From Desulfomonilaceae bacterium (GTDB lineage: Bacteria; Desulfobacterota; Desulfomonilia; Desulfomonilales; Desulfomonilaceae), in contig JAVHLK010000012.1 of the NCBI GenBank assembly GCA_031082285.1, forward strand, positions 1-64,000: a stretch of DNA of 64,000 bases. The letters are read 5' to 3'. Under the pieces are notes generated by a model. The model worked only from the letters and a program-made list of their open reading frames with translations, did no database searches and had not been told where the DNA came from. Positions within the stretch are counted from its first letter, which is position 1. Each line of letters opens with the position of its first letter. Shown in pieces: positions 46,731 to 56,317 of the stretch. The translations under genes and the position numbers were made by a program.

Positions 46731-47600
46731 TCACTCATTGTCCAACAGCGTTCCCTTGAGGTTGGCTCCGGTGAGGTCGGCTGCGTCCATTTGGGCACCG
46801 TCAAGCTTTGCCGACGTCAGGTCGGCGCGCTCAAATTCCGTGTCGGAGAGTTTCGCGTCGGTGAAGTCGGCCTGCGTCAGATTTGCTTCCATGAACCTTG
46901 CCTGCCTGAGATCGGCTTCTTTCAGGTTCGCCTCCCTCAGGTTTGCTCTATCAAAGTTCGCCCTGAAAAGGTTTGCCTCCACCAGGTTGGCTCTCGACAA
47001 ATTGGCCCCCGTCAGATTCGCCTCCGACAGATCGGCTCTTGTCAGTAAAGCACCGGCGAGGTTCGCCTCGGAAAGCTCAACACGGAAGAGGGTCGCACCG
47101 GCGAGATTCGCCCGTTGAAGGTTGGCCTCATAGAGATAGGCTTCCGACAGGTCGGCCCCTTCGGCTTCCAGACCGGACAGGTTGGCCCCTGTAAGGTTCG
47201 CTTCAGCAAGATGTGCCCCGGAGCGTACGGCAAGCTCAACAAGGTCCTTAATGGTTTCGGCCGTGCCGCGAAAGAGAATTTCTTCGGTGAACTGGTTCCT
47301 GAGGTTTAATGGTTGGTCGAGTGTCGGCATTCCGTCACGGATCTCCGATTCATCCAACAATCCCTGATCAAGCAGTTTCCCCAAGAGGCTGATGAGTCCC
47401 CGGACGGACAAGTTGTATTTTCGCATCAATCCCGCGTGGTCCATTTCCGCCCGCACATCGGCCAAAGCTTCTCTCGCGCTGATGTTTTTTCTCTGCACTT
47501 GGGCATCTCCCTGGATGGGCGATTGCTCGTCGACCTGTCCGGTCTCCCGGTCACCGCGGTTGACGGAGGGATCGATCGCCTCCTCGTCAATCGCAACCAT
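46731..47600 (-). CDS. Pentapeptide-repeat protein with N-terminal helical domain
   Basis: A 289-residue protein. Residues about 120-289 are tandem pentapeptide repeats of A(D/N)LxX form (for example ADLSEANLTGANLSRANLVEANLF), around 30 units, which fold into a right-handed quadrilateral beta helix. The N-terminal part contains SAREALADVRAEMDHAGLMRKYNLSVRGLISLLGKLLDQG, a short helical module I have seen at the N-termini of several deltaproteobacterial proteins, of unknown role. Pentapeptide proteins can mimic DNA or scaffold membrane proteins; nothing specific can be said here. There is no signal peptide. The ribosome binding site at ATG 47600 is weak. Confidence 0.85.
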   Translation of the reverse strand: MVAIDEEAIDPSVNRGDRETGQVDEQSPIQGDAQVQRKNISAREALADVRAEMDHAGLMRKYNLSVRGLISLLGKLLDQGLLDESEIRDGMPTLDQPLNLRNQFTEEILFRGTAETIKDLVELAVRSGAHLAEANLTGANLSGLEAEGADLSEAYLYEANLQRANLAGATLFRVELSEANLAGALLTRADLSEANLTGANLSRANLVEANLFRANFDRANLREANLKEADLRQARFMEANLTQADFTDAKLSDTEFERADLTSAKLDGAQMDAADLTGANLKGTLLDNE

Positions 47601-47765: not shown

Positions 47766-49562
47766 CTAATGGACCGCCTTGGCCGCCTCGGCACCTCGAG
47801 GATACCGAATGCTTTCAACCATGTCCTGAACGTCTTGGGGCGGCGGAGGCGTAAGCAGAGACACGATGTAGCACACCACGAAATTGAAGATCATTCCCAC
47901 GGTGCCGATTCCTTCGGCGCTTATGCCCAAGAACCAGAATCCCGCGCCCATGAATTTCACGTGGATGATGTAGGCGGCGGTAAAGACAATGCCCACGATC
48001 ATGCCGGCGATGGCTCCCTCACGCGTCGTTCGTTTCCAAAAGACCCCCATGATGATGATGGGGAAGAACGACGAGGCCGCCAGGCCGAAGGCGAAGGCCA
48101 CCACCTGGGCCACGAATGCGGGTGGATGGACCCCGAAATAACCGGCCACACAGATGGCCACAAAGATCATGATGCGTCCAATGGTCAATTGTAAGGCTTC
48201 CGACGCCTGTGGATTTATCATTCGGTAATAGAGGTCGTGAGCGATCGAGGAGCCGATCACCAGGAGGAGACCGGCCGCGGTTGAGAGTGCGGCGGCCAAA
48301 CCTCCTGCCGCCACAAGGCCCACGACCCAGTTGGGCAGCCCGGCAATCTCCGGGTTGGCCAGCACCATGATGTCCCGGTCCACATAGAGCTCATTCTGAT
48401 TATCAGTGAGCTTATTGGTTACCAGAGGCTCCCCGAATTTTCCATGTTCGATCTTTCCGTCCGCTTCTTTGAATTTCGGCGGACCGACAAAGGGATCTCC
48501 GGGCCTGTACTGGATTATGCCGTCTCCATTCTTGTCGACCCAGGCCATGAGCCCCGTGGTTTGCCAGTTCAGGAACCAGGAAGGCGCTTGCTTGTAAGGC
48601 TTGTCGTTGAGGGTGTCGATCATGTTGTACCGGGCGAAGACCGCCACAGCCGGCGCAGTTGTGTAGAGCAGGGCGATGAAGAACAGGGCGTACCCCGCGC
48701 TGATCCGGGCGGACTTCACGTTGGGAACCGTGTAGAACCGGATAATCACGTGCGGCAGTCCTGCGGTTCCAACCATTAGAGCGAACGTGATCATGAACAC
48801 GTCCAGCATGCTCTTCTGCCCCGCGGCAAAGGCTGAAGTGTAGGCGGCGAATCCTAAATCCTTGTTCACGACATCAAGGACGTCGAGCAAGTATTTCCCC
48901 TGTTCCGGGCCGACGGCGGAGATGGCCGCACCATAGCCGATCTGCGGAATGGGCCAACCGGTGAGGTGGACGGATATTGCGACCGCGGGGATAAGATATG
49001 CGACAATGAGCACGCAGTACTGAGCCACCTGCGTCCATGTGATTCCCTTCATGCCGCCGAGGCCTGCGTATATGAACACAATGGCCATACCGATGATGAC
49101 GCCGACGTGGACTTGAACTTCGAGGAATCGACTGAACACGATTCCCACCCCGCGCATCTGACCGCATACGTAGGTCAGCGACACGAAGATCGCGCAGATG
49201 AGGGCCACCACTCTGGCCGTATCGGAGTAGTACCTGTCCCCGACGAAATCCGGCACGGTGAATTTTCCAAACTTCCGGAGATAGGGCGCCAGCAGAAGTG
49301 CCAGGAGAACGTATCCGCCGGTCCAACCCATCAGGTACATGGAACCGGTGTATCCAAGGAAGGAGATCAGGCCCGCCATTGAAATGAAGGACGCGGCACT
49401 CATCCAGTCCGCAGCCGTGGCCATTCCGTTGAAAATTGCAGGCACGCCTTTCCCCGCGACGTAAAACCCCGCGGTGGTGGCAACCCTCGACCTCCATGCG
49501 ATGACGATGTAGATGGAAAACGTTATGCCAACCATAATATAGGTCCAAGTCAGAATCGACAT
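47766..49562 (-). CDS. ActP-like sodium/carboxylate symporter, large subunit
   Basis: A 598-residue membrane protein of the sodium:solute symporter family with about 13 hydrophobic segments. FYVAGKGVPAIFNGMATAADWMSAASFISMAGL is the typical ActP start; later GGLAAALSTAAGLLLVIGSSIAHDLYYR is the sodium-site helix. A hydrophilic loop around residues 320-390 contains VDKNGDGIIQYRPGD, a calcium-loop-like motif. This subgroup is paired with a small DUF4212 subunit, encoded just upstream here, and moves acetate or related short carboxylates. The neighbouring acyl-CoA ligases, exonuclease and DUF294 genes reproduce a cluster known in gammaproteobacteria. GGAGCG-type site before ATG 49562. Confidence 0.92.
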   Translation of the reverse strand: MSILTWTYIMVGITFSIYIVIAWRSRVATTAGFYVAGKGVPAIFNGMATAADWMSAASFISMAGLISFLGYTGSMYLMGWTGGYVLLALLLAPYLRKFGKFTVPDFVGDRYYSDTARVVALICAIFVSLTYVCGQMRGVGIVFSRFLEVQVHVGVIIGMAIVFIYAGLGGMKGITWTQVAQYCVLIVAYLIPAVAISVHLTGWPIPQIGYGAAISAVGPEQGKYLLDVLDVVNKDLGFAAYTSAFAAGQKSMLDVFMITFALMVGTAGLPHVIIRFYTVPNVKSARISAGYALFFIALLYTTAPAVAVFARYNMIDTLNDKPYKQAPSWFLNWQTTGLMAWVDKNGDGIIQYRPGDPFVGPPKFKEADGKIEHGKFGEPLVTNKLTDNQNELYVDRDIMVLANPEIAGLPNWVVGLVAAGGLAAALSTAAGLLLVIGSSIAHDLYYRMINPQASEALQLTIGRIMIFVAICVAGYFGVHPPAFVAQVVAFAFGLAASSFFPIIIMGVFWKRTTREGAIAGMIVGIVFTAAYIIHVKFMGAGFWFLGISAEGIGTVGMIFNFVVCYIVSLLTPPPPQDVQDMVESIRYPRGAEAAKAVH

Positions 49563-49622
49563 GCATTCGCTCCTTTCCGCTCCTTATTCGGTCTCGGTAC
49601 GTACCTGGTGATGGCTTCAGGG

Positions 49623-49877
49623 CTATTCCTGTACGTCGTACTTTCGGTCGAGTCTCGACATGAGCCCCACGTAGACGAATATCAATATGACAAAGATGAC
49701 CTCGGACCCTTGGTTGGCAAACCAGAACCCAAGCGGGAAGCCGCCGATGCTGATCGCGTTGAGAGGTTTAACGAATATGATTCCCAGTACGTACGATACG
49801 AGTCCCCAAATACACAGAAGTATGACCACGTATGTGAGGTTCTTATGCCAGTACTCGGTCAACTTGCTCTGGTCCAT
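49623..49877 (-). CDS. DUF4212 small subunit of the carboxylate symporter
   Basis: An 84-residue protein with two hydrophobic helices (VVILLCIWGLVSYVLGIIF and VIFVILIFVYVGLM), a short basic tail (SRLDRKYDVQE), and the family pattern NAISIGGFPLGFWFANQGS between them. DUF4212 proteins are encoded directly before ActP-type symporters, as here (61 bp apart). GGAGGAGG lies upstream of the ATG at 49877. It is the first gene of the operon; its roughly 600-nt upstream region contains the duplicated leader unit. Confidence 0.92.
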   Translation of the reverse strand: MDQSKLTEYWHKNLTYVVILLCIWGLVSYVLGIIFVKPLNAISIGGFPLGFWFANQGSEVIFVILIFVYVGLMSRLDRKYDVQE

Positions 49878-49900
49878 ACTGAATCCTCCTCCCTATAAAA

Positions 49901-50018
49901 GGCGTTTTTCACCCTTGAAATTCCCGGCGTCGTACGCGACCTGAATGCTGCGGACATCCCACATCACTCAGAGAAATTGGGACCGCTCATTCCTTCCAGG
50001 TCGGCAAACCCGGCAATT
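49901..50018 (-). repeat. Leader unit 1 (118 nt), proximal to the DUF4212/actP operon
   Basis: Read on the minus strand the unit begins AATTGCCGGGTTTGCC and ends GGGAATTTCAAGGGTGAAAA plus ACGCC. It aligns without gaps, at identical length, to 50163-50280. Conserved blocks lie at both ends, with GCGGTC, TTTCT and GCATTC aligned in the variable middle. The end AAGGGTG-AAAAA-CGCCTTT can form a hairpin, immediately before the ribosome binding site of the DUF4212 gene. Confidence 0.75.
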
Positions 50019-50058
50019 GAATCCCCACGTCCTTATCAGTAAATGTAGCTCTTTTCAT
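49987..50058 (-). CDS. Putative 23-residue leader peptide
   Basis: An ATG at 50058 with AAGGAG two bases upstream opens a 23-codon frame ending TGA: MKRATFTDKDVG then IQLPGLPTWKE. The aligned frame in unit 2 (50255-50320) has the same register, no gap, and the same QLPGLPTW; the two base changes within these eight codons (TTG/TTA Leu, CCG/CCC Pro) are both synonymous. This hints at selection on the peptide. It sits in the leader of the symporter operon. Not matched to any peptide family I know. Confidence 0.4.
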   Translation of the reverse strand: MKRATFTDKDVGIQLPGLPTWKE

Positions 50059-50162
50059 CACTCCTTTATGTTTTTTTCAGCTTCGGAAAAGCAAGCGAGA
50101 CGTCTTGGACTTTGGGCGCATCTATTCCATGGCGCGGCACATACTACTCCCATTGGGTGAAG

Positions 50163-50280
50163 GGCGTTTTTCACCCTTGGAATTCCCGATATGCAACGAA
50201 ACGGGAATGCCGTGAACACTCTCGTAACCGTGGAAGAAAACGTGACCGCGGATTTTACCAGGTGGGTAAACCCGGCAATT
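50163..50280 (-). repeat. Leader unit 2 (118 nt), distal
   Basis: Second copy of the leader unit, 262 bp upstream of unit 1 in the operon direction. Similarity extends beyond the 118 nt into an A-rich stretch followed by AAGGAG, so the duplicated segment is probably about 190 nt or more. Confidence 0.75.
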
Positions 50281-50320
50281 GCACCAACAACTTTCTACTT
50301 GGCAACTCTCCTGTTTTTAT
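50255..50320 (-). pseudogene. Counterpart of the leader peptide in unit 2, start codon ATA
   Basis: Aligns codon for codon with the unit 1 peptide: IKTGELPSRKLLV then QLPGLPTW and TAA. The position equivalent to the unit 1 ATG is ATA, after AAGGAGGG. Either it starts at an internal TTG or GTG, it is part of a longer frame from 50458, or it is no longer translated. The label pseudogene is tentative. Confidence 0.3.
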
Positions 50321-52021
50321 CCCTCCTTCACATTTTTTTCCCCACTGGAGAAGCCGAACAAACCTCTCCTCATATGGCCGCGCATCTCTCCTCTCGCGTG
50401 GCGCAGACCACACCCTATGCGCAGACCAGACCACTCCATCCGGTCCATGCGACCGCACACAACAATTTCTACTTGTTGAGACCTATCCTAATATGATGAC
50501 TTAACCTCTCGTAAAGCTGTGTTCACCTTCCTGTGCTGCAAAATTGAGAAGGACCCTGAGGCGGCGCCCTGCCCGTTGCGAGAACAAAGAACACGATTCG
50601 ACCAAGTATTTCCGGCGCCCCCCGGATAAGGGAGTCCTGCCGTGTATCACCTGCCGGGGCCGTAAAAAAGCCTCGGCGCACATGCGAGAGGTCTAACGAC
50701 ACGCAGCGCTTGACATGGCAAACTGGGTATGTTGACGAGGTTGGATATGAACGAGCTGGATGGAAGAAAACCTTGAAGGCGGATACGTTGTTCGGGTGAA
50801 TGAAGGGAGGAGTCAACCCCCTTATTGCCCGCAGGAAGCGCTGAAAGAGCTGAAAGATATGTGTCTCGGCACGAGATATATATGCGGATGAACGTCGCAA
50901 AGAATCCCTGAGCGTGAGGAAGTCTCGCCGGCCGACGTGAATGGTAACGCCGATGCGGCCCTGACTCGCTCTGCCCGCCGTGTCCCCCTCCTTCTCACGG
51001 GAAGAGCATCGCCTGACTCCCTTGAACCGCTCAAAGGTACATAGGTGCGTCGTTTGGAGCACGTTTCTACTCCGCGTAGCCGCAGCCTCAGTCCTTTTTC
51101 ATTGACCCGGCTGAAGAATGAACGACCGACCCGAAATCGGTGGAAACGTTGATGGGCGCGGAGCATGCTCCGCAAGGAAACGAGTGTATAGGCTAACTGC
51201 GCACTCGTGCACCATGTGCAGCCCTTGAAATGCGGACCTTTGTGCTCGATGCGGCAGGTCGATTAGATATAAAAGGAGCGCACGGGTTTTGTCAACGCTA
51301 AAATGACGCGCGATCGATATTTCTTGCATCCAAAGGGGTATGGCCTTCACAGTCGCCCTATCCTGGACCCGCTAATGCCCTGTTTCGCGGGTGAGGGTGC
51401 AGCACGCAAGTGACGCTCACGCGTCTTCGGGCCGTGACGGGTTTCCCTTCGGAGGTGTCGCCGGAGAGGGTGCGGGAAGCGTCACATTCGGTATACGAGA
51501 GTGCAGGCGCACACTCGGACAATTATCCGCTATTGAGACGCGGCGCCCCGCGCACGACACAATCTTTTTTCATTGCTTCCCCTGGGCGCTCGTATCCGGA
51601 CGCCTTGCTCGATACCCCCAAAGAGGGGTTGCAATCGGACCCAAGTACTGCCATGATGGGATTCTCCTTCGGGTCAAGCGAGTCGACATTAATCGCCTTT
51701 CGAGAGCGCGCTACGGTAGGGTTCACCGCGGGGATCTCGGTCTGCGGCCGGCCCCCCCCGCTGAGCGGGGATATGGTTCTTCGGCCGTTTAATAGGACAA
51801 TCACCGCGCCATGGGAGTCGTGAATTCCGCGACTTCTGCGGACCGACCGATCGCGCCCCAGGGAACCCGACTCTTAGGATCGGCTTCCGCGAGGCGATGC
51901 CCTGTTCTTCAAACAATACGTTCTTCTCGTTTCAGGTCGCGGCAACGCGAGGAATCACCTCCTTTGGTTTGGCTGTAATGCGAAACAGGAGTAATCTCGG
52001 CAGACATGTCTGGGGGTACGC

Positions 52022-53917
52022 ATGAAATACGACGAAGTGTACAGAGAGTCTTTGGAGAACCCCGTCGGGTTCTGGGGACGAGCGGCGGAAGAGATCGCTT
52101 GGGACAGAAAGTGGGACCGAGTGTTGGATTTTTCCAATCCTCCGTTCTGCAAGTGGTTTCCCGGGGGGATGCTCAACACGTGTTTCAACGCGGTGGATGT
52201 TCATGTCCTACAGGGACGAGGCGGACAAACCGCGCTCATTTACGACAGCCCCGTAACCGATACCGTTGCAACGTTCTCGTACGCGGACCTGAAGGCGAGA
52301 GCGTCCAAGGTCGCCGGCTTCTTGAAGGGCATCGGAGTCGGTAAGGGAGACACCGTCATCATCTACATGCCCATGATTCCAGAGGCCGTCATCTCCATGC
52401 TTGCTTGCGCGCGGTTGGGAGCGATCCACTCGGTGGTCTTCGGCGGATTCGCGCCTCCGGAGCTGGCAATTCGCATTGAAGACGCAAGACCCAAGGCGAT
52501 TCTGTCGGCGTCCTGCGGCATAGAAGTCAAGCGGATCATTCCTTACAAGCCTCTCCTTGACGAGGCAATCGAAATTTCGTCCCACAAGCCCGAAACATGC
52601 GTCATCCTGCAACGTCCGCAGGTGACCGCCGAACTCATTCCCGGCCGCGATCTCGATTGGGCGGAGCAAGAGGCCGGCGCACAACCTGCCGAGTGCGTGT
52701 CCGTCGGGGCCAACGACCCGCTCTACATACTCTACACGTCCGGAACCACGGGAAGGCCGAAGGGCGTGGTGAGAGACAACGGAGGTCACGCGGTGGCCCT
52801 GAAATGGTCGATGAAGCACATCTACGACATCGGCCCGGGAGACGTCTACTGGGCCGCGTCCGATGTAGGCTGGGTGGTCGGGCACTCGTATATCGTGTAT
52901 GCACCCCTGTTCATGGGGGCCACTACCATCGTCTACGAAGGAAAACCCGTTGGAACGCCCGACCCGGGAGCGTTCTGGCGCGTCATCTCCCAGCACGGAG
53001 TGAAGGCTCTCTTCACCGCGCCGACGGCAATCCGGGCGATCAAGCGAGAGGACCCTTCGGGTCGATACCTGAAAGGCTACGACATCTCAAGATTCGAGAC
53101 GCTGTTCCTTGCCGGGGAACGACTGGATCCCGATACCTATTACTGGGCCACTGAGTTGCTTCAAAGGCCCGTTATCGACCATTGGTGGCAGACGGAGACG
53201 GCGTGGACCATCGCCGGGAACTTCCGCGGTCTGGAGGAGTTCCCCATCAAGGCCGGCTCCGCCACGAAACCAATGCCCGGGTACAATTTGACCGTCGTGG
53301 ATTCGGCTTCGGCTGAGGAGCTCGGCCCGAACATGAACGGCGTGTTGGTCGTGAAACTTCCTCTTCCCCCCGCAAACCTGCCGACGTTGTGGAACGACGA
53401 CAAGAGATTCGTCGAGTCGTACATGAACCCGTTTCCCGGCTACTATCTGACGGGCGACGGCGGTTTTATCGACGAGGAAGGATACGTCTGGGTGATGGGT
53501 CGCGTGGACGACGTGATCAACGTGGCAGGCCACAGGCTTTCCACAGGCGGCATGGAAGAAGTCTTGGCCAGGCACCCCGATGTGGCGGAATGCGCGGTGG
53601 TGGGAGCACACGACAACCTCAAGGGCCAGGTTCCGGTAGGATTCGTCGTGTTAAAGGCCGGGGTGACCAAACCACAGGAAGAGGTCATCTCCGAGGTAGT
53701 GCGGATGGTTCGAAGCGAAATCGGCCCCATTGCCTCGTTCAAGCAGGCAGTGGTCGTCGCGGGGTTGCCCAAGACCCGATCGGGAAAGGTTCTTCGCGGG
53801 ACCATGCGAAAGATCGCCGACGGCGAGGAATATTCAATACCGTCAACCATAGACGACCCGACCGTTCTCGACGCGATAGGAGAGGCCGTCAAAAAGATCG
53901 GATATGGGAAGAAATAA
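52022..53917 (+). CDS. prpE: Propionyl-CoA synthetase (PrpE-type acyl-CoA ligase)
   Basis: A 631-residue AMP-forming ligase that activates propionate (or another short carboxylate) with ATP and CoA. The A3 loop YTSGTTGRPKGVVRDNGGHAVAL with RDNGGH is typical of the PrpE/ACSS3 branch, not of Acs. Also visible are ASDVGWVVGHSYIVYAPL, FTAPTAIRAI, DHWWQTET, the hinge region GRVDDVINVAGHRLSTGGMEE and the catalytic Lys in PKTRSGKVLRG. One oddity is WWQTETAWTIAGN, where most members have Gly after TET. GGGGGT precedes the ATG. It is divergent from the symporter operon, which may supply its substrate. Confidence 0.9.
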   Translation: MKYDEVYRESLENPVGFWGRAAEEIAWDRKWDRVLDFSNPPFCKWFPGGMLNTCFNAVDVHVLQGRGGQTALIYDSPVTDTVATFSYADLKARASKVAGFLKGIGVGKGDTVIIYMPMIPEAVISMLACARLGAIHSVVFGGFAPPELAIRIEDARPKAILSASCGIEVKRIIPYKPLLDEAIEISSHKPETCVILQRPQVTAELIPGRDLDWAEQEAGAQPAECVSVGANDPLYILYTSGTTGRPKGVVRDNGGHAVALKWSMKHIYDIGPGDVYWAASDVGWVVGHSYIVYAPLFMGATTIVYEGKPVGTPDPGAFWRVISQHGVKALFTAPTAIRAIKREDPSGRYLKGYDISRFETLFLAGERLDPDTYYWATELLQRPVIDHWWQTETAWTIAGNFRGLEEFPIKAGSATKPMPGYNLTVVDSASAEELGPNMNGVLVVKLPLPPANLPTLWNDDKRFVESYMNPFPGYYLTGDGGFIDEEGYVWVMGRVDDVINVAGHRLSTGGMEEVLARHPDVAECAVVGAHDNLKGQVPVGFVVLKAGVTKPQEEVISEVVRMVRSEIGPIASFKQAVVVAGLPKTRSGKVLRGTMRKIADGEEYSIPSTIDDPTVLDAIGEAVKKIGYGKK

Positions 53918-54343: not shown

Positions 54344-56317
54344 ATGGGAAACGGGCCCACACGGTATGACCGCCATGTGACGTTCTCTGGTCAAACCGCA
54401 TTCATCAAGAGCGTGGAGGAATACGAACAGGTCTACAACAGGTCTGTTGAGGAAGTCGAATCCTTCTGGGGGGAAAGTGCTCGTGAATACCTGTCGTGGG
54501 ATAGGGCGTGGGACTTTGTCCTGCGTCATGACCTTGAGGAAGCGCGTATTCAATGGTTCGGCGGCGGATTGCTCAATGCGTCGTACAATTGTCTCGACAG
54601 GCATCTGGACACGCGCGGCGACACGACGGCCTATTACTGGGAAGGCGACAGTCCTTCGGAACATCGAGCGATCGCCTACTCGGAACTGCACCGATCCGTG
54701 TGCGAGTTGGCCGCGTTACTGAAGGCACGGGGTGTCGGCAGAGGGGATCGAGTCATCATTTACATGCCCATGATCGTCGAACTGGTTGTGGCCATGTTGG
54801 CGTGCGCACGAATCGGCGCGGTTCATTGCGTCGTGTGCACGGAATTCGGCGTCGAATCGCTCGCGGATCGGATCGACTTGATCCGGTCGGTTGCTGTGGT
54901 CACATCCGACGGGGGTCTCCGGGGGGGAGCGGTCTTTCCGGTCAAACCGACCGTGGACGAGGCGCTGACAAGGTGTACGGGGGTACACACGGTCGTGGTC
55001 TTCAACCGATGCGGCCTCAATCCCGACATGCGCAACGAGAGAGACATTTGGTGGCATGAGGCCGTCCCGGGTACGTCCCCTACCGGCTGGGTCGCTCCGG
55101 AACCTATGAATGCGGAAGACCCGCTGTTCATCGCATTTGCCGGAACCAACACCGGCAAGCCCAAAGCTCTGGTCCACACCCACGGGGGGTACCTCCTCTG
55201 GGCCGCCATGACAAGTCGACTCATCTTCAACCTGTCGGAAAATGACGTTTTCTGGTTTACCGGTAACCTCGGCAAGGTCGTCGGCCAGAGTCTGGGCGTC
55301 TACGGACCGCTGATCAACGGAGTATCCTCAGTGCTCTTCGAGGGCGTCTCCAATTACCCCGACTACGACCGATACTGGCGGATCGTGGAGAAGCTCTGCG
55401 TGGGAAAATTCTGCACGGAACCCCATGAAATTCGCGTCCTGGCTTCGAGGGGAAAGGAACATGCGGCCGGGCACGATCTTTCCTCTCTCCGGATCCTAGG
55501 CAGTTGTGGGGAAGCCCTGTCTCCCGAGACCTGGTGGTGGTACTTCGAACATGTCGGCGGAGGAAGATGTCCCGTAATGAACATGTGGTCTCAGAGCGAA
55601 AGCGGCGGCCCCATGTTGAGCCCGTTTCCAGGCGTGGGTCCCGTCAAGCCCGGATCGGTCTCCTTTCCGTTCCTCGGAGTGAAACCCGTTGTACTCGACC
55701 TGAACACGGGGGAGGAGACCAAGTTTCCCGGCCAGGAAGGGGCATTCTTCATTGGAAAACCATGGCCGGGCATGGCCAGAACCATATTCGAGGATCATCA
55801 GAGCTATATCGAAACCTATTTTGCGCCGTTTCAAGCACTTTTCATCACCGGCGACGGAGCCAAGATCGACGAGGACGGGTGCTACTGGATCACCGGACGC
55901 ATCGACGACGTCCTCAAGGTCGCGGGGCATCGTATAGGCGCGTGGGAGATCGAAACAGTGCTGGTGGAACATGACGGGGTGGTTGAGGCGGCTGTTGTGG
56001 GCTTCCCGCATCCGATCAAGGGGCAAGGACTGTACGCGTTCGTCACGGTTGGGCCGGGAGTTGAAAAATCCGATGCATTGAACCGTGAGTTGAGAGATTT
56101 CCTTAGGTCACGTATCGGCGTCATGGCAGTGCCCGACGCTCTGCAATGGGCCGAAGATCTCCCCAAGACCCGCAGTGGAAAGATCCTGCGACGTCTTCTG
56201 CAGAAGATCGCCTTGGGTGAGGTGGACGATCTCGGCGACACCGCGACGGTCGCAAATCCCGCGGCCATCGAGGCGTTGATACGGAACAGGATCGGAGTGC
56301 CGGACGGCGGCGGCTAG
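54344..56317 (+). CDS. Acetyl-CoA synthetase paralogue with altered active site
   Basis: A 657-residue protein clearly homologous to Acs along its length, closest in this window to the gene at 62215. Key motifs are changed. The ATP loop reads FAGTNTGKPKALVH (265-278) instead of [25 protein letters not shown] (306-316) replaces [19 protein letters not shown] (356-364) replaces [19 protein letters not shown] (413-422) replaces [10 protein letters not shown], so the pocket Trp corresponding to Salmonella Trp414 is Ser416. The hinge GRIDDVLKVAGHRIG and catalytic Lys613 (PKTRSGKIL) are kept. It may use a different acid, or bind nucleotide or acyl-AMP without full catalysis. The frame is intact with a strong AAGGAGG, so it is not simply a pseudogene. 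Confidence 0.9.
   Translation: MGNGPTRYDRHVTFSGQTAFIKSVEEYEQVYNRSVEEVESFWGESAREYLSWDRAWDFVLRHDLEEARIQWFGGGLLNASYNCLDRHLDTRGDTTAYYWEGDSPSEHRAIAYSELHRSVCELAALLKARGVGRGDRVIIYMPMIVELVVAMLACARIGAVHCVVCTEFGVESLADRIDLIRSVAVVTSDGGLRGGAVFPVKPTVDEALTRCTGVHTVVVFNRCGLNPDMRNERDIWWHEAVPGTSPTGWVAPEPMNAEDPLFIAFAGTNTGKPKALVHTHGGYLLWAAMTSRLIFNLSENDVFWFTGNLGKVVGQSLGVYGPLINGVSSVLFEGVSNYPDYDRYWRIVEKLCVGKFCTEPHEIRVLASRGKEHAAGHDLSSLRILGSCGEALSPETWWWYFEHVGGGRCPVMNMWSQSESGGPMLSPFPGVGPVKPGSVSFPFLGVKPVVLDLNTGEETKFPGQEGAFFIGKPWPGMARTIFEDHQSYIETYFAPFQALFITGDGAKIDEDGCYWITGRIDDVLKVAGHRIGAWEIETVLVEHDGVVEAAVVGFPHPIKGQGLYAFVTVGPGVEKSDALNRELRDFLRSRIGVMAVPDALQWAEDLPKTRSGKILRRLLQKIALGEVDDLGDTATVANPAAIEALIRNRIGVPDGGG

Follow-up and report, generated by a model that had tools for sequence, protein, structure and literature searches.

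Introduction

In acs-yjcH-actP acetate uptake operons, a small membrane protein and a sodium:solute symporter are encoded together with an acetyl-CoA synthetase. A different kind of precedent is provided by tandem riboswitches, in which two similar units are found within one leader. Tandem attenuators or short open reading frames (ORFs) are reported for the leader of a transporter operon, mgtCBR of Salmonella (PMC3641672). Here, we analyze a diverged tandem duplication located directly upstream of an operon formed by a DUF4212 gene and a TIGR03648 symporter gene, within a stretch of 64,000 nucleotides (the window, to which all positions refer) from a Desulfomonilaceae bacterium. Literature searches turned up no paper that mentions both DUF4212 and a symporter and nothing on the leader of DUF4212 or actP.

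Gene neighborhood of the duplicated leader

The operon is located on the minus strand and comprises the DUF4212 gene, coding for the small subunit of the symporter (49623 to 49877; PF13937, E = 1.2e-32; TIGR03647, E = 1.3e-31), and the gene for the large subunit, a VC_2705-family sodium/solute symporter (47766 to 49562; TIGR03648, E = 1.4e-256, well above the cutoff). Against the ActP equivalog profile, the symporter scored far below the cutoff. Divergent from the operon are two consecutive genes for AMP-binding proteins with N-terminal domains of acetyl-CoA synthetase (52022 to 53917 and 54344 to 56317), which, together with the symporter, suggest a cluster for the uptake and activation of acetate or another carboxylate. 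The ca. 2.1 kb that separate the DUF4212 operon from the first of these genes (49878 to 52021) contain no recognized gene. Three ORFs scanned within this stretch gave no NCBIfam match, and the stretch had no blastn match in 20 relatives. Scans for sigma-70 and sigma-54 promoters gave nothing above chance, and no promoter was recognized. Just downstream of the symporter, we found a gene for a pentapeptide-repeat protein (46731 to 47600); in one relative (G003, locus L011, ca. 600 to 1340), a pentapeptide-repeat-like stretch adjoins a DUF4212-like gene.

Extent of the tandem duplication

Alignment revealed a head-to-tail repeat of ca. 262 bp on the minus strand, with an operon-proximal copy 1 at 49897 to 50153, delimited by its alignment with copy 2 (self-blastn E = 8.5e-27), and an operon-distal copy 2 at 50159 to 50417, delimited by the repeat register and its alignment with copy 1. 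In a global alignment, the two are identical in 170 of 261 columns (65%). Their similarity is far beyond chance, with a local alignment score of 72 versus a mean of 10.2 and a maximum of 17 in 500 shuffles. Repeat pieces D1, D2, D3, and D5, found within 49898 to 50415, have start-to-start spacings of 262 to 264 nt. The copies adjoin each other in the same orientation and in a single register, as in a tandem duplication. The operon end of the duplication falls right at the DUF4212 ribosome binding site.

The original prediction had described two segments of 118 nt on the minus strand that align without gaps, and both were found where it had placed them; they represent the operon-proximal half of each ca. 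262-bp copy. Several pieces are indeed gap free and in register, but not the middle of the unit, where ungapped identity dips to near chance level (13 of 40 positions at 49960 to 49999) and the best alignment takes two compensating 1-nt gaps. The register had also been said to continue upstream, and the duplication in fact reaches ca. 50153 and ca. 50417, with a true period of 262 bp. The search for a third copy further upstream gave only a 21-nt partial match at 50455 to 50475; this stretch (CAAGTAGAAATTGTTGTGTGC) resembles 50281 to 50301 of copy 2 at a spacing of 174 nt, outside the 262-nt register. A direct repeat, TGGTCTGCGC, occurs twice, 18 nt apart, where copy 2 borders on the sequence upstream of it (50401 to 50432), and could be a protein binding site. 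The motif ATAGGG is present at either outer end of the duplication, as might be expected if short repeats had allowed slippage.

Conserved hairpins

Identity between the copies reaches 25 of 26 and 22 of 24 positions (92 to 96%) in the two best blocks, versus 49% outside the selected blocks, and each of these blocks coincides with one hairpin. The hairpin of the form CCGGGU-6-ACCUGG is CCGGGU-UUGCCG-ACCUGG in copy 1 (49996 to 50013), where it overlaps the QLPGLPTW codons considered below, and CCGGGU-UUACCC-ACCUGG in copy 2 (50258 to 50275). The 3' hairpin (AAGGGUG-5-CGCCYUU) is AAGGGUG-AAAAA-CGCCUUU in copy 1 (49898 to 49916) and AAGGGUG-AAAAA-CGCCCUU in copy 2 (50160 to 50178). All are on the minus strand and were delineated by folding and pair comparison. 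The 3' end had been described as able to fold, and this holds for both copies; in copy 1, only four bases separate the hairpin from the DUF4212 Shine-Dalgarno sequence that follows it (49885 to 49893). The seven pairs of the 3' stem are preserved in both copies, one of them differing as G-C to G-U; the comparison of these two sequences showed one-side changes only and no compensatory two-sided changes in the stems. Another conserved segment is an A-rich, Shine-Dalgarno-like block, GAAAAAAACATAAAGGAGTGATGAAAA (50052 to 50078, minus strand), matched at 22 of 27 positions by copy 2, 262 nt farther upstream.

The alifold energy of each of the two blocks was better than 99.8 to 99.9% of same-block column shuffles (P of ca. 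0.001 to 0.002), and the whole 124-column alignment gave a z score of −2.1 (P = 0.028). Folding of the full copy-1 leader produced competing structures, with the hairpins at a probability of ca. 0.5. By permutation, the clustering of identical columns was only marginally nonrandom (P = 0.059 and 0.12 for windowed identity, 0.048 for the longest run, and 0.013 for the two longest runs); these four statistics supersede an earlier block permutation with +1/−2 scoring, which is near the critical regime (P = 0.35 and 0.05), and strong clustering is seen by neither approach. With clustering this marginal, the pattern is nearly accounted for by an old duplicate that simply decayed.

The putative leader peptide

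A possible leader ORF of 23 codons, MKRATFTDKDVGIQLPGLPTWKE, runs in copy 1 from the ATG at 50058 to 49987 on the minus strand, as originally proposed. Of the good ribosome binding site ascribed to it, the Shine-Dalgarno match (AAAGGAG) is real, but it lies only 2 nt before the ATG. The frame of copy 2, LPSRKLLVQLPGLPTW (50255 to 50305, minus strand, by frame translation), has a TTG start and no ATG and is probably not translated efficiently. The residues QLPGLPTW are common to both copies, with two differences that, as claimed, are both synonymous, and stop codons follow shortly downstream in both. Synonymous changes make up 17 of the 72 possible single changes in these codons, and two out of two would arise by chance in ca. 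6% of cases. Both differences fall in the hairpin loop and therefore fit an RNA reading equally well. The frame as a whole has 7, 7, and 10 differences at the three codon positions, and no codon periodicity is left after removing the two within the block. This uniformity outside the block and the missing ATG of copy 2 are not what a leader peptide (attenuator) would show. The common REFQG-TGA needs no coding explanation, as it is part of the strongly conserved 3' block. A mechanism in which leader translation relieves sequestration of the DUF4212 Shine-Dalgarno sequence found no support in constrained folding, with unpaired values of 0.61 for the free leader and 0.53 with a modeled ribosome on the frame.

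Copy number and search for homologues

The whole 5.6-Mb genome (99.9% completeness) contains two copies, adjacent to each other. Other blastn or pattern matches examined in it were short and inside apparent coding sequence, and near matches to AAGGGTGAAAAACGCC elsewhere were discarded, being within open frames and about as numerous as expected by chance. Rfam covariance models had no match up to an E value of 1 at positions 48000 to 52000, and the leader carries no known Rfam RNA family or riboswitch. By blastn, the unit had no match in the relatives searched, and a plasmid collection gave no match either. A covariance model built from the two copies found nothing convincing in relatives or around symporter and DUF4212 orthologues; weak matches in three genomes (G006, G041, and G059), mostly with large deletions and coding-looking surroundings, were judged to be chance.

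A location bias upstream of symporter genes had been proposed as a test; upstream of ca. 120 DUF4212 orthologues, neither the covariance model nor blastn found a convincing homologue. Sensitive blastn against 122 upstream regions, the window's own included, gave nothing beyond the window itself apart from a single match (E = 0.15) attributable to chance. Among these 122 regions, the sole other one with a tandem duplication upstream of DUF4212 was that of Candidatus Uabimicrobium amorphum (83 nt, 89% identity, 90-nt spacing; L048), which has no match to the unit. A degenerate QLPGLPTW pattern had no match in 394 other genomes of the phylum; six viral contigs did match, but these were rejected as short open frames with nothing else alike. 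The DUF4212 gene is found in only 3 of 18 genomes of the family, and among the symporter homologues found, identity is highest, at 71%, for those of a Desulfobulbaceae and a Desulfarculaceae bacterium, so that there are no close orthologous leaders to compare. Absence of the unit upstream of orthologous operons had been named beforehand as the outcome that removes the regulatory case. The idea that DUF4212 symporter operons share a conserved cis-regulatory leader is accordingly unsupported, and the case would narrow to a lineage-specific one.

Interpretation of the duplicated leader

The explanation that we favor, with a probability of roughly 55%, is a lineage-specific tandem duplication of the operon leader with modestly constrained hairpins acting in cis. 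A single ca. 262-bp event, itself shown by the alignments, would have given the DUF4212-symporter operon of this lineage a second 5' leader, arranged head to tail with the first, presumably by recombination or slippage between short ATAGGG-like end repeats, and the copies would then have drifted apart to their present identity. The leader would be transcribed together with the operon and may act through the two small hairpins supported by folding, one overlapping the codons for QLPGLPTW and the other immediately before the Shine-Dalgarno sequence, probably by affecting mRNA stability or ribosome access. Copy 1 would do the work of the leader, and copy 2 would be in decay or partly redundant. 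From the hairpins in both conserved blocks, we infer that a modest role as tandem cis-acting RNA is the best functional reading of a leader that is mostly ordinary. The tandem regulatory RNA of the original prediction thus survives as far as the hairpins are concerned, but it gained no comparative support.

Neutral tandem duplication of intergenic DNA, with no function beyond an ordinary promoter and ribosome binding region and with blocks produced by chance clustering, is a possible if doubtful alternative. The marginal clustering of identities, the lack of conservation in relatives, and the lack of a known RNA family all agree with it, but it leaves the coincidence of both top blocks with hairpins, and their identity nearly twice that found elsewhere, to chance. 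A translated peptide ending in QLPGLPTW that controls the operon through attenuation or the stalling of ribosomes, the copy-2 frame being either a remnant or another sensor, would explain the Shine-Dalgarno match and ATG of copy 1, the residues shared through synonymous differences only, and the stops that soon follow them. We consider it unlikely, given the ca. 6% chance expectation of those differences, their even spread over codon positions outside the block, the copy-2 frame without an ATG, the pattern unmatched in the 394 other genomes, and a Shine-Dalgarno sequence made no freer by the modeled ribosome; control of carboxylate uptake by such a peptide has become a weak proposal. Still less probable is a new tandem RNA regulator of carboxylate uptake, confined to this lineage, whose units would each combine a short QLPGLPTW-terminated peptide and a hairpin in control of the DUF4212-symporter mRNA. 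Hardly any credence can be given to a dispersed repeat or miniature mobile element inserted twice. The inverted complementarity of AATTGCCGG and CCGGGAATT inside one unit is reminiscent of such an element, but several unrelated loci would be needed, and the proposal is refuted by a nearly complete genome with two copies abutting head to tail in one register and otherwise only short matches within coding sequence.

If the hairpins of the favored cis-acting leader do regulate the operon, this locus would exemplify the tandem duplication of a regulatory leader within a single lineage; otherwise, it shows how a diverged tandem duplication can mimic a duplicated regulatory element. Its gene content resembles that of acs-yjcH-actP operons in the small membrane protein, the sodium:solute symporter, and the nearby acetyl-CoA synthetase-like genes, although here the symporter belongs to the VC_2705 family (TIGR03648) and is not a true ActP, and the acs-like genes are divergent. 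With tandem riboswitches, the leader shares two similar units, but it has no Rfam match, conservation elsewhere, or recognized ligand-binding core. Compared with mgtCBR, the units here are diverged copies of each other with one normal start codon and attenuation is hypothetical, whereas the overall design is alike, in that a transporter operon is preceded by a long leader containing at least two short-ORF/stem-loop units.
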